This document shows, one piece after another, positions 2,770 through 26,048 of a stretch of DNA of 32,523 nt. The DNA comes from a virus. The DNA is taken from positions 1-32,523 of the IMG/VR virus record IMGVR_UViG_3300029787_000198, one strand, 5' to 3'. Position 1 is the stretch's first letter; every line of letters begins with the position of its first letter. The notes beneath the pieces were generated by a model. It saw only the letters and a list, made by a program, of their open reading frames with translations, did no database searches and was not told the DNA's origin. The translations under genes were made by a program, and so were the position numbers.

Positions 2770-4674
2770 ATGCCCGGCAAACTACAAATGGCAATGTTCC
2801 CACCCAAAACAGACTGGGTGCCAATCGCAGAGTTTCCTGACATCACCGATGCCGAAGAAATCGCTATCGACGTGGAGACCCGTGACCCTAGCCTCAAAGA
2901 ACGAGGACCGGGCTGGCCTACCTGTAACGGAGAGGTCGTCGGCTACGCCATCGCTGTCGCTGGCTGGTCTACTTACATCCCTGTAGGACACGCAGGGGGC
3001 GGAAACCTCGATGCACGGATCACGGCCCGATGGTTAAAAAAAGTATTCGAATGCCCTGCCGACAAAGTCATGCACAACGCTCAGTACGACCTTGGCTGGC
3101 TCCGCGCTATGGGCTTTACCGTTAATGGCAAGATTATCGATACCATGATGACCGCCAGCCTAATCGACGAGAATCGCTTCAGCTACAGCCTAAACGCACT
3201 GGCCTATGATTATCTAGGCAAAACCAAATCTGAAAAAACCCTGACCGACGCCGCACGGAGCTTTGGTGTCGATCCCAAAGCAGAGATGTGGCGTTTACCC
3301 GCCATGTATGTCGGCCCCTACGCAGAAGTCGATGCAGAGCTTACCCTTGAACTTTGGAACCACTTCAAAACAATCCTCAATCGTGAGGACCTATGGACGA
3401 TCTGGGAACTCGAAACCGGACTCTTACCTTGTTTGGTGGACATGACCATGAAAGGTATCCGTGTCGATTCCGACAAAGCAGAGCGTGTAAAACAAAAGCT
3501 GATGCGCGAAGAACATGAGCTACACAAACGCATCAAAAAATTAGCGGGTAAAGACGTAGAAATATGGGCCGCACAATCCATCGCCCAAGCTTTCGACAAG
3601 CTGTCTATCCCTTACCCCAAAACAGAGAAGGGTACGCCCAGCTTCACAAAGACCTTTTTGTCTGAACACTCCAGCGAACTCGCAAACTTGATCGTTCAAT
3701 GCCGCAACATCAACAAAACCCACGGTAGCTTTATCGATGGCGTCATGAAGTACGTTCACAAAGGCCGCGTACACAGCCACGTGAACCAACTGCGATCCGA
3801 CGATGGGGGCACAATTAGTGGGCGTATGAGTTACAACTCGCCCAACTTACAGCAAATCCCAGCCCGTGACCCACAGCTTGGCCCATTGATCCGCTCCCTG
3901 TTTATTCCTGAAGAAGGCACACAGTGGGCGGCTATCGACTTCTCGCAACAGGAGCCACGGATCTTGGTTCATTACGCCAAAGCTTTTGGAGAATCACGTA
4001 ACGCACCATTATCGGGCGTCGAAGAAATCGTCGATGCGTACCGCACCAAAATGGACACCGACTTCCACACCATGGTCGCGGAGATGGCAAACATCCCTCG
4101 CAAACAAGCCAAAACCATTAATTTAGGCATGATGTACGGTATGGGTGTCAACAAATTGGCAGACCAGTTGGACCTCACTATCGACGAGGCAAAGGCCCTT
4201 ACTAAGCAATACCATGAGCGGGTGCCCTTCGTTAAAGCACTAATGCGGGGCGTCCAACAACGGCTCGAAGACCCACGGTCCTCCGGCTCCATACGATCTC
4301 TCAAAGGACGCAAATGCCGATTTGACCTCTGGGAACCCGATACCTTCGCAATGCACAAAGCCATGCCCCGCGAAGAGGCCATCGCGACTCACGGGCCAAC
4401 CACACGGTTAAAACGTGCTTACACCTACAAGGCACTCAACCGTTTGATCCAAGCATCCGCCGCCGACATGACCAAGCAAGCAATGCTCGACTGCTACAAC
4501 GCGGGACACGTGCCTATGCTCCAAGTACACGACGAGCTTGCCTTCAGCATTGAAAGCACGGAACAAGCGCGTAAACTATCTTCAATCATGGAAAATGCGG
4601 TGCCAATCGAGGTGCCAAACAAATGTGACGTTGAAATTGGCCCATCGTGGGGTGAATGCGAGGACATGATATGA
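2770..4674 (+). CDS. polA: DNA polymerase I (family A) with 3'-5' exonuclease domain
   Basis: Replicative phage DNA polymerase. The N-terminal proofreading exonuclease has ExoI DVET (residues 34-37), ExoII HNAQYD (102-107) and ExoIII Y184/D188. The polymerase domain has motif A with D390 (DFSQQEPR), motif B RKQAKTINLGMMYG (444-457) and motif C VHDE (586-589). There is no 5'-3' nuclease domain, and 634 residues is typical of phage Pol I. In motif B, counting from R754 and K758 of E. coli Pol I, the residue matching Phe762 is Leu452 (codon TTA at 4123-4125). The start lies two bases after the membrane-protein stop and the end overlaps the next gene in ATGA. Confidence 0.96.
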   Translation: MPGKLQMAMFPPKTDWVPIAEFPDITDAEEIAIDVETRDPSLKERGPGWPTCNGEVVGYAIAVAGWSTYIPVGHAGGGNLDARITARWLKKVFECPADKVMHNAQYDLGWLRAMGFTVNGKIIDTMMTASLIDENRFSYSLNALAYDYLGKTKSEKTLTDAARSFGVDPKAEMWRLPAMYVGPYAEVDAELTLELWNHFKTILNREDLWTIWELETGLLPCLVDMTMKGIRVDSDKAERVKQKLMREEHELHKRIKKLAGKDVEIWAAQSIAQAFDKLSIPYPKTEKGTPSFTKTFLSEHSSELANLIVQCRNINKTHGSFIDGVMKYVHKGRVHSHVNQLRSDDGGTISGRMSYNSPNLQQIPARDPQLGPLIRSLFIPEEGTQWAAIDFSQQEPRILVHYAKAFGESRNAPLSGVEEIVDAYRTKMDTDFHTMVAEMANIPRKQAKTINLGMMYGMGVNKLADQLDLTIDEAKALTKQYHERVPFVKALMRGVQQRLEDPRSSGSIRSLKGRKCRFDLWEPDTFAMHKAMPREEAIATHGPTTRLKRAYTYKALNRLIQASAADMTKQAMLDCYNAGHVPMLQVHDELAFSIESTEQARKLSSIMENAVPIEVPNKCDVEIGPSWGECEDMI

Positions 4675-4874
4675 AGTGCTGGAACTGTGAAGACATTGAC
4701 CTCATTTGGGGTGGTGATCATGAACAAATCAACGAAGACGGTGAGTCAAACACAGTTTCTAACTTTTCTTGCCCCAACTGTGATGCTCTGGTTTTCTTTT
4801 ATCACGGCACACGGGACACGTTCACTCCTGAGTGGGCTAGAGAAATAGTTGCAAATGAGCCAGAGCTACATTAA
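4671..4874 (+). CDS. Zinc-ribbon-like small protein (67 aa)
   Basis: The start is placed at the ATG in the ATGA overlap with the polymerase stop rather than at an in-frame ATG 15 bases upstream, inside the polymerase gene. It has two cysteine pairs, CWNC (residues 3-6) and CPNC (about 37-40), and an acidic body, so it is probably a metal-stabilised ribbon. It closes the replication operon; 230 bases without an obvious gene follow. Function unknown. Domain-of-unknown-function proteins of this shape are common next to phage polymerases, but I cannot name the family. Confidence 0.75.
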   Translation: MKCWNCEDIDLIWGGDHEQINEDGESNTVSNFSCPNCDALVFFYHGTRDTFTPEWAREIVANEPELH

Positions 4875-4931
4875 ATCTTGTATTATCTAACATAATCGTA
4901 TATATTTACTCATAGGACAAGATCTAACATC

Positions 4932-5085
4932 GCTGGCATAAGACACCAGTGTCCTGAAACGTCTAGGACAGGGGCTTACTTCCACCCAAATAGCTGGCAT
5001 AAGACACCAGTGTCCGAAACGTCCAAGACAAGGAGGTGGCTCCTCGTAACTTGGTCTGAGGCACCAAGGTCTGAAACGCCTCACC
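4932..5085 (+). repeat. Three tandem structured repeats: two adjacent hairpins with complementary loops
   Basis: Three units at 4932-4970, 4993-5030 and 5050-5085, about 56-61 bases apart; units 1 and 2 share 23 identical bases. Each unit has hairpin 1 (CTGG/CCAG in units 1-2, CTTGG/CCAAG in unit 3), then hairpin 2 closing on TGAAAC (TGTCCT/AGGACA in unit 1, TGTC/GACA in unit 2, GGT/ACC in unit 3). The loop of hairpin 1 can pair with the loop of hairpin 2: AGAC with GTCT in unit 1, TGAGGC with GCCTCA in unit 3; unit 2 has only three such pairs. The helices change sequence but keep pairing, which suggests a functional RNA. It matches no class I know. An extra hairpin lies at about 5033-5045. 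Confidence 0.6.
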
Positions 5086-5104: not shown

Positions 5105-5428
5105 ATGAAAAAATTATTGATAGCAACACTGTTACTTTCTTCCGGCGCAACGGCTGGAGAAGTGTGGGATAAAATTGTTGGTGATAGGCACCGCAACAAA
5201 GCATCACTTTACTGCATTGATGACGGAATTTCTGCGGCAGGTTACTTTACAAAAAACAAAGAGCTTGTTGACGCACGGTATGAGCTTTGTATTGCTCAAT
5301 ACACCAACCAGTACATTGAAGAAGAAATAGTTCAAGAAATTGAAATCAGTCAGGAGCTTGAAGCTATTCAAAAACAAATCAATGAACTAATACGACGCCG
5401 TGAAGAAATGCTCAAGGGCGTGTTTTAA
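5105..5428 (+). CDS. Small secreted/periplasmic protein with signal peptide and C-terminal coiled coil
   Basis: The ATG at 5105 is preferred over an in-frame GTG at 5093 because it begins a textbook signal peptide: MKK, a hydrophobic core LLIATLLLSS and a small-residue cleavage region GATAG near residue 18. The mature part has two cysteines (CIDDG and ELCIAQ) that could form a disulfide. It ends in a heptad-like acidic helix (about residues 70-105, EEEIVQEIEIS to RRREEML), probably a coiled coil. It lies 20 bases downstream of the structured repeat array. No family recognised; a role in the envelope, such as exclusion or lysis control, is only a guess. Confidence 0.75.
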   Translation: MKKLLIATLLLSSGATAGEVWDKIVGDRHRNKASLYCIDDGISAAGYFTKNKELVDARYELCIAQYTNQYIEEEIVQEIEISQELEAIQKQINELIRRREEMLKGVF

Positions 5429-5450: not shown

Positions 5451-5687
5451 ATGGACACCACTAAGTGGAAATCAGTGCTGATGCCTCGCGACGTATACGA
5501 AGAGATTGTTGTCATCTCGCGTGTGGAAGGTCGGACCATTAGCGGACAGTTGCGCTACATAACTGAAGCATGGAAACAAGCCAACCTTTCTAAGAACGAT
5601 CAAAGTTACATCAAAGATGAGGTGCAGAAGTTTAAAGAAGCAAATGGTGACAATAAGGCGCTAACCGCAAAAAGCTTTTCTATTTGA
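5451..5687 (+). CDS. Ribbon-helix-helix-like DNA-binding protein
   Basis: A 78-residue protein whose N-terminal half fits the Arc/CopG ribbon-helix-helix fold: a short strand WKSVLMP (residues 5-11), helix A DVYEEIVVISRVEG, a turn, then helix B TISGQLRYITEAWKQA. Such proteins dimerise and insert the two-stranded ribbon into the DNA major groove, usually as repressors. The C-terminal 35 residues are polar and helical. The next gene starts in a TGATG overlap. Upstream GGAG lies about 12 bases before the ATG. It is the only recognisable small regulator in the window, so the inverted repeats at 6052-6066 or the TATGCGAT cassettes are possible targets; that link is inference. Confidence 0.75.
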   Translation: MDTTKWKSVLMPRDVYEEIVVISRVEGRTISGQLRYITEAWKQANLSKNDQSYIKDEVQKFKEANGDNKALTAKSFSI

Positions 5688-5869
5688 TGGATATAGAATC
5701 CAAACTAAAAGAACTGTTAGAAAATTTTGATGAGTCCTACGAAAGAAAAGGGGTTGTCAATCGATCAGACCTTGGTGAAATCCTTATATGGTATGAACTA
5801 TTACATGCAAAACGAAAAGCCGAACGAGAAAGGAGTGCCAAGCCCGTCAATCCCCAAGATGATGATTGA
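5687..5869 (+). CDS. Small hypothetical protein (60 aa)
   Basis: ATG overlaps the stop of the preceding gene in TGATG, which argues for translational coupling. Mostly alpha-helical and highly charged: acidic N-terminal half (ESKLKELLENFDES) and a basic KRKAERERSAK segment before a DDD terminus. No cysteines or membrane segment and no family recognised. A second frame overlaps its last bases, so the boundary with the following small gene is uncertain. Confidence 0.6.
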   Translation: MDIESKLKELLENFDESYERKGVVNRSDLGEILIWYELLHAKRKAERERSAKPVNPQDDD

Positions 5870-25481: not shown

Positions 25482-25538
25482 AAATTGTCCCTGACAGTTA
25501 TATCTCGTAACTGACACTAGCCCAGACAGGAGATCAAA

Positions 25539-26048
25539 ATGGCTAATACTACTTTTAACGGACCAGTTCGGTCAGAAACTACTTTTAAAACTGTAAGCAA
25601 AGATAGCACGACTGGCACTATTACTGAGGTTGCAACACTAGGTGATGGGCCTGTAAGTCTTTCTGACGGTAACGTAACACTCACTAATGCGACACACAGC
25701 GGTAGAATTCTACTTGTCCCAGATGGTGGTCAAGATAACACCTATACATTGCCCGCTCCGATTGCGGGATCTGTTTTCAAATTTGTTTATGCAGGTGGTG
25801 CGGCGGATGCTACAGACGCGCTCATTGTTACTCCCGGTAACACAAACTTTTATATTGGCGGCGTTACGTTTTTAGATACAGACGGTAACGAAGTAAGTTC
25901 GGTATTTTCTGATGGTAATTCCAACAGCAGTATTCAGTTGAACGTACCTGCTGGATTTGAAATTACTGTTGTTGGATTGAACACCACCAACTATCAAATT
26001 TTTGGAAATGTCACCAGCACTACTGCACCTGCATTTGCTGATCAGTAA
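25539..26048 (+). CDS. Putative structural protein, beta-rich (169 aa)
   Basis: Begins MANTTFNGPVRSETTFK, an opening I recall in marine phage structural proteins of unknown role. The body is Thr-, Asn- and Gly-rich beta (RILLVPDGGQDNTYTLPAPIAGSVFKFVYAGGA, SSIQLNVPAGFEITVVGLNTTNYQIFG), compatible with a jelly-roll-like decoration or short fibre domain. Own promoter at 25453 and AGGAG upstream suggest it is expressed strongly and apart from the coat gene. Confidence 0.65.
   Translation: MANTTFNGPVRSETTFKTVSKDSTTGTITEVATLGDGPVSLSDGNVTLTNATHSGRILLVPDGGQDNTYTLPAPIAGSVFKFVYAGGAADATDALIVTPGNTNFYIGGVTFLDTDGNEVSSVFSDGNSNSSIQLNVPAGFEITVVGLNTTNYQIFGNVTSTTAPAFADQ

Follow-up and report, generated by a model that had tools for sequence, protein, structure and literature searches.

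Tandem pseudoknotted three-way junctions, very likely a structured RNA, upstream of a ribbon-helix-helix-like gene in a phage genome

The sequence analysed here (the window) is the whole of a 32,523-nucleotide stretch, positions 1 to 32,523 of IMG/VR virus record IMGVR_UViG_3300029787_000198. The record is that of a phage with a polymerase and a terminase that are 48-64% identical to their counterparts in the pelagiphages HTVC023P and HTVC027P and in phage DSL-LC04. A noncoding stretch, preceded by the polymerase A gene and a small gene ending at 4874, carries three repeated units in tandem, as the preliminary description had pointed out. The array extends from 4914 to 5082 on the plus strand; the start at 4932 proposed earlier is too far downstream, as the UGUCC of the first unit pairs with GGACA upstream of that point. 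Features of the locus are as follows.

4878..4906, plus strand: promoter-like element TTGTAT-17-TATATT, recognized by conservation and position; the spacer between its -35- and -10-like boxes holds the inverted repeat ATTAT-ctaac-ATAAT.
4914..4964, plus strand: unit 1, from hand alignment and folding. P1 GGAC 4915-4918 / GUCC 4951-4954; P2 lost in this copy (AGATCT); P3 GCUGG 4932-4936 / CCAGU 4946-4950; pseudoknot AGAC 4941-4944 / GUCU 4961-4964; linker UGAAAC.
4965..5024, plus strand: unit 2, whose minimum free energy (MFE) fold in isolation is the three-way junction. P1 GGAC 4966-4969 / GUCC 5012-5015; P2 GGG..CCC inside 4971-4987; P3 GCUGG 4993-4997 / CCAGU 5007-5011; pseudoknot AGAC 5002-5005 / GUCC 5021-5024, three pairs; linker GAAAC.
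5025..5082, plus strand: unit 3, from alignment and covariation. P1 AGAC 5026-5029 / GUCU 5069-5072; P2 AGGAG 5031-5035 / CUCCU 5040-5044; P3 CUUGG 5050-5054 / CCAAG 5064-5068; pseudoknot GAGGC 5058-5062 / GCCUC 5078-5082; linker GAAAC.
5105..5428, plus strand: small secreted-protein gene, an insertion that is unique to the window and separates the array from the ribbon-helix-helix-like gene.
5451..5687, plus strand: ribbon-helix-helix-like gene (78 aa), which follows the array in every relative of lineage A (see below).

The promoter-like element is kept directly upstream of the array in L003, L007, L009, L010 and L011. We infer its promoter status from this conservation and from its position before the array, since a strict consensus promoter scan did not call the element at 4878..4906. 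Its predicted transcript start, at about 4912-4914, coincides with the first base of unit 1 and lies about one base before P1; the array would presumably be transcribed from there. The inverted repeat in the spacer, whose counterpart in L011 reads TTATC-taa-GATAA, is a possible operator for the ribbon-helix-helix-like protein. The small gene that precedes the array (4656-4874) is Zn-ribbon-like; L011 has no such ORF there, and its array and promoter-like element closely follow polA.

An exact search with CTGGCATAAGACACCAGTGTCC matched five viral contigs, and a protein search with the gene at 5451 was followed by retrieval of the best 80 of 372 viral relatives. Those closest to the window have the array directly 5' of the ribbon-helix-helix-like gene. 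Other relatives (L017, L023, L031 and so on) are devoid of it, and there the gene follows polA or another gene with a short leader. Because these array-less relatives reach the gene through a short leader straight from polA, the array appears to be a swapped-in leader cassette. Ten viral contigs carry two or three units upstream of this same gene. Lineage A, as defined here, comprises the window and L003 (= L013), L004/L016, L005, L006, L007 (= L008), L009, L010, L011 and L012, several of which are identical within the array. There are two units in L009 and L010 and three in the remaining members; the order is constant, with the unit 3 type always last, followed by the Shine-Dalgarno sequence and the gene.

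Further pattern scans uncovered a second lineage, B, in a different phage group: L104, L116 and L128, identical in this region, and L216. Here a single unit (11519-11576 in L104, 7790-7848 in L216) lies in a 3' UTR, after a stop codon and ahead of an intrinsic terminator, beyond which is an integrase gene with its own promoter-like site 3' of that terminator. L104 has no tRNA or tmRNA. The remaining matches of the viral pattern scans proved on inspection to be due to chance. Thirty pattern matches in GTDB genomes all lacked P3 and the pseudoknot, and a weak match in G022/L243 lies inside a coding frame. Searches of GenBank phages and plasmids returned no homologue; nor did 295 and 369 further sampled bacterial genomes yield any homologue or host RNA of this fold, in a search that loses weak matches.

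Alignment of the units indicates that each one is very likely a three-way junction closed by a pseudoknot, and hence that the array specifies a real structured RNA. The consensus reads RGAC-A-[P2]-J-NNNGG-NNN(N)-[PK5']-A-CCNNN-GUCY-GAAAC-[PK3'], over 50-62 nt: P1 (RGAC/GUCY) encloses a variable hairpin, P2, and a 5-bp helix, P3, whose loop pairs with the strand just 3' of P1', spanning the A-rich linker GAAAC. This last pairing is AGAC/GUCU or GAGGC/GCCUC in the array of the window; the variants across units are AGAC/GUCU, AAGC/GCUC, AGGC/GUCU and GAGGC/GCCUC. P2 and the segment joining it to P3 (J2/3) vary in both length and sequence, and invariant unpaired bases are few (the A before P3' and the AAA of the linker). 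The unconstrained MFE fold of the isolated units W2 (unit 2 of the window), L003_1, L011_2 and L104 is in each case the same three-way junction (P1 GGAC/GUCC, P2 GGG/CCC, P3 5 bp); that of W3 (unit 3 of the window) and L216 is not. Folding energy by itself is unremarkable (z -0.23), as expected given that the short pseudoknot cannot be scored by the folding program.

This architecture differs from the kissing hairpins of the preliminary description, several elements of which are nonetheless retained. The helix described as CTGG/CCAG in units 1 and 2 and CTTGG/CCAAG in unit 3 exists and is really 5 bp long (GCUGG/CCAGU and CUUGG/CCAAG). The loop contact is also present, as AGAC/GTCT in units 1 and 2 (limited to three pairs, GAC/GTC, in unit 2) and as GAGGC/GCCTC in unit 3; the linker, taken to be constant, is only near-constant as GAAAC. 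It is the other proposed stem that does not hold. Its TGTCC strand pairs with the upstream GGACA, with four to five of five pairs in 17/17 units, whereas the downstream partner assigned to it, although a GGACA does match downstream in unit 1, is present only where another unit follows. In lineage B there is no downstream partner, the best candidate making 2/5 pairs. Likewise, the GGT/ACC version suggested for unit 3 is lost in relatives, where TCT or TTC stands after GCCTC (L007, L009 and L010).

Seventeen units were aligned by hand, the lineage A test of P1 and P3 being carried out on 14 distinct rows. Paired cells count sequences rather than events, and the arrays recombine, so that the following percentages and scores are not formal probabilities: for P1 and P3 in lineage A, 99.2% of cells were paired versus 92.4 ± 1.5 in shuffles and 26-41% when slid, and the covariation score was 0.265 versus 0.137 ± 0.022, with three pairs changed on both sides; for P3 together with the pseudoknot in 16 distinct rows of both lineages, 97.2% of cells were paired, with four pairs showing double changes and a score of 0.290 versus 0.159 ± 0.021; for the pseudoknot alone, 96.9% were paired versus 90.7% shuffled and 16-39% slid, with two doubly changed pairs and a score of 0.321 versus 0.176 ± 0.039. 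The independent sequences are few: there are about six types of array and two of single units. Permutation over five distinct strand combinations gave p=0.05 for the pseudoknot and p=0.10 for P3. The clearest single case is found in unit 2, where AGAC/GUCU in L003 corresponds to AAGC/GCUC in L007 and L011, two adjacent pairs being changed on both sides. In P2 of unit 3, the outer pair is A-U in the window, G-C in L009, L010 and L011, and G-U in L003 and L007.

The strongest test of the fold is a held-out covariance search. With model R2, built from lineage A only, L104/L116/L128 score 48.1 bits (E=2.4e-8) and L216 scores 45.3 bits (E=1.1e-7); the best of the other matches in 719 kb has E=0.97. 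Unit 1 of the window scores 54 bits with the same model (cmsearch), being itself part of the training set. As for the strand, G-U occupies 20/221 pair cells on the plus strand versus 3 A-C cells, which would be G-U on the other strand; it is therefore the plus strand, also that of the promoter-like element, that folds. Altogether, homologues retain both the covarying pairs and the loop contact, contrary to the broken pairing that the preliminary description named as refuting evidence, and the R2 search, shuffles and slides place the structure beyond chance, bearing out the earlier suggestion of an undescribed structured RNA. The suggestion that it belongs to no Rfam class also stood: no Rfam 15 family matches the array of the window or of L011, even with the cut-off relaxed to E<=5. 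Over the L104 motif no model exceeds its gathering score, the best being L2-Alphaproteobacteria (16.9 versus 37.8 bits), on the downstream terminator. By these comparisons the array is a new RNA family, absent from Rfam, although its general kind is known. Few structured RNAs have been described in marine phages, and the array adds to them a compact fold supported by covariation.

The gene at 5105, put forward earlier as the regulated one, is missing from the corresponding place in all other array-bearing contigs. In L003, L007, L009, L010 and L011, the array runs straight to the ribbon-helix-helix-like gene, and in L009-L011 the Shine-Dalgarno segment of that gene, TTAACTGGAGATTTTT, is found directly 3' of the array. 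The secreted-protein gene has thus been inserted between the array and the leader and Shine-Dalgarno sequence of its neighbour; because of its absence from relatives we reject it as the ancestral partner of the array. Its sole viral relative found, L002 1365-1682, is 77% identical and has a different gene context. The protein encoded at 5451 has predicted helices at 13-26 and 30-45; the folds that match it best are those of CopG (0.6 A over 35 residues), Arc and MatP, none of them significantly (E>1 in each case), and it has no Pfam or PHROG match. Judging from these helices and fold matches, it is probably a ribbon-helix-helix regulator.

The module itself appears mobile and quick to change. 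L104 and L216 have 97% identity across the two 500-base flanks of the motif and 74% within it; the changes fall in P2, in J2/3 and towards the 5' side of loop 3, and leave P1, P3 and the pseudoknot as they are. Recombination and diversifying selection are candidate causes of this divergence. W3 and L104 share GAAACGCCTCACCTAATT, which extends eight bases beyond the pseudoknot, and this suggests horizontal movement of the module between phage groups. In unit 3 of the window, the P2 hairpin (5031-5044) encloses the Shine-Dalgarno-like AGGAGGUGG; GGAGGUGG is invariant in every lineage A copy of unit 3, and P2 of the other units is freely variable.

Flaviviral xrRNA is topologically the closest RNA. 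Its helices come in the order P1, P2, P3, P1', linker and pseudoknot from loop 3, and it needs single-stranded bases 5' of P1, which pass through the ring and form pairs within the junction. The array resembles class 1 xrRNA in its three-way junction, in the pairing of the P3 loop just 3' of P1', in its size of about 60 nt and in its often tandem arrangement. It differs in having no conserved 5' threading bases (a single base separates the units), in its directly adjacent P1 and P3 and in residing in phage DNA genomes, in an mRNA leader or 3' UTR. A second parallel is offered by type III antitoxin RNAs, which combine a promoter with tandem pseudoknots (PMC8860590), and of which phages can carry mimics, as does PhiTE with pseudo-ToxI (PMC3475682). 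Common to these and the array are tandem H-type pseudoknots behind a promoter (which, for the array, is recognized by conservation only) and an A-rich loop along stem 1. However, the gene after the array is ribbon-helix-helix-like and no endoribonuclease gene is found, unlike in ToxIN; PADLOC returned no match of note near the array. Like the glutamine-I and -II riboswitches, the array is a compact leader RNA of about 60 nt from marine microbes or metagenomes with a junction or pseudoknot; unlike them, it has no Rfam match and no evident ligand pocket. Glutamine-I, a junction without a pseudoknot, was dropped as a topological parallel, and glutamine-II has a different strand order (PMC6698751).

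The explanation that we place first, albeit tentatively, is that the RNA is a portable module that influences, in cis, the stability or the translation of its transcript. P3 would stack directly on P1, as their 3' strands abut with no joining base, and the A-rich linker would lie against the P1/P3 helix; the result would be an H-type pseudoknot whose first stem carries hairpin P2 as an insertion. In lineage A, two or three such modules would form the extreme 5' end of the mRNA of the ribbon-helix-helix-like gene, and the compact array could bury this end, slowing RNase attack that depends on it and/or setting downstream translation. In lineage B, a single module would protect the 3'-UTR end of another operon, before the terminator. 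The leader position behind a promoter-like element and the conserved unit order count in favour of a cis role. The lineage B context (a 3' UTR, before a terminator, with an integrase that has its own site) fits an element whose target is the transcript and not a single gene downstream; the changed gene context is, however, equally compatible with a trans-acting function. As to translation, in simple thermodynamic calculations the accessibility of the Shine-Dalgarno sequence did not change consistently once the pseudoknot strands were reserved, a result that lends translational control no support.

Since the lineage B module lies in a 3' UTR, nearly as likely, while still doubtful, is that the RNA acts in trans as an abundant decoy, its repeated pseudoknots titrating either an RNA-binding protein of the host or a defence RNase, as pseudo-ToxI does with ToxN. 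Tandem pseudoknots of varying copy number (two in L009/L010, three in others), the array's own conserved promoter-like element, the other gene context of lineage B, the PhiTE precedent (PMC3475682) and the rapid change inside the unit between L104 and L216 would all suit such a decoy. Set against this, the units are three-way junctions of 50-62 nt with an inserted hairpin rather than 36-nt simple pseudoknots and are not separated by conserved single-stranded tails at which cleavage could occur; no host RNA of this fold came up in the 295 + 369 sampled genomes or in the GTDB pattern search; and lineage A has no consistent terminator 3' of the array: L003 and L007 have a T-run after unit 3, the window, L009, L010 and L011 do not, and no plus-strand terminator is called. 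A search of 11 array-bearing records with PF13958 (ToxN) gave no match, a weak argument as the control was silent too. That the modules are tandem aptamers by which a ligand controls the ribbon-helix-helix-like gene seems unlikely. Their tandem arrangement in a 5' leader, the frequency of H-type pseudoknots among aptamers (PMC6698751) and the proximity of GCCUC to the Shine-Dalgarno GGAG downstream, part of which it can pair (probability 0.5-0.8 in L003, L007 and L009), speak for it, but with so few invariant unpaired bases and so variable a P2 and J2/3 the units look architectural rather than like a ligand pocket. Moreover, the thermodynamic proxy for Shine-Dalgarno access changes inconsistently, and the lineage B module, located in a 3' UTR, precedes both a terminator and the promoter-like site of the integrase.

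An exonuclease block of the flaviviral kind, stopping a 5'-3' enzyme such as RNase J, is improbable. The helix order, similar size and tandem copies would agree with it, as would the arrest of bacterial RNase J1 by flaviviral xrRNA in vitro (PMC5760640); yet only one base lies between the previous pseudoknot strand and P1, the transcript is predicted to start about one base ahead of unit 1, no conservation is seen in the bases 5' of P1 (TA, CA, AC), and with P3' abutting P1' the stacking probably differs. Least probable is a DNA element (an operator, or a replication or recombination site) whose repeats merely resemble RNA structure. While in the two lineages it has polymerase and integrase genes as neighbours, its crossing helices are changed on both sides, G-U use is restricted to one strand, isolated units fold into the junction and the unit 3 types show no conserved palindrome. 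Beyond the preferred cis-acting module, a bolder proposal, to which we give little weight, is that of an undescribed phage RNA class in which tandem three-way-junction pseudoknots would defeat a host RNA-decay or RNA-based defence enzyme, as a 5' mechanical block or as a decoy, and would have moved among unrelated marine phages by horizontal transfer. In animal viruses, RNAs of similar topology block exonucleases, and phages use tandem pseudoknots as decoys to counter toxin systems; the function of the array thus bears on whether phages resist RNA decay or defence in their hosts by means of such mechanically stable RNAs.

Two further observations concern other parts of the window. Positions 5062-5074, in unit 3, are perfectly complementary to 5765-5777 over 13 nt; this potential antisense pairing is not conserved in L009, L010, L011 and L013 and was dismissed as coincidence. 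The sole Rfam match in the window is a Mu-gpT-DE RNA at 25489-25541 (64.2 bits, E=7e-13), which adjoins the gene at 25539, directly upstream of it, in a phage with pelagiphage-like polymerase and terminase.
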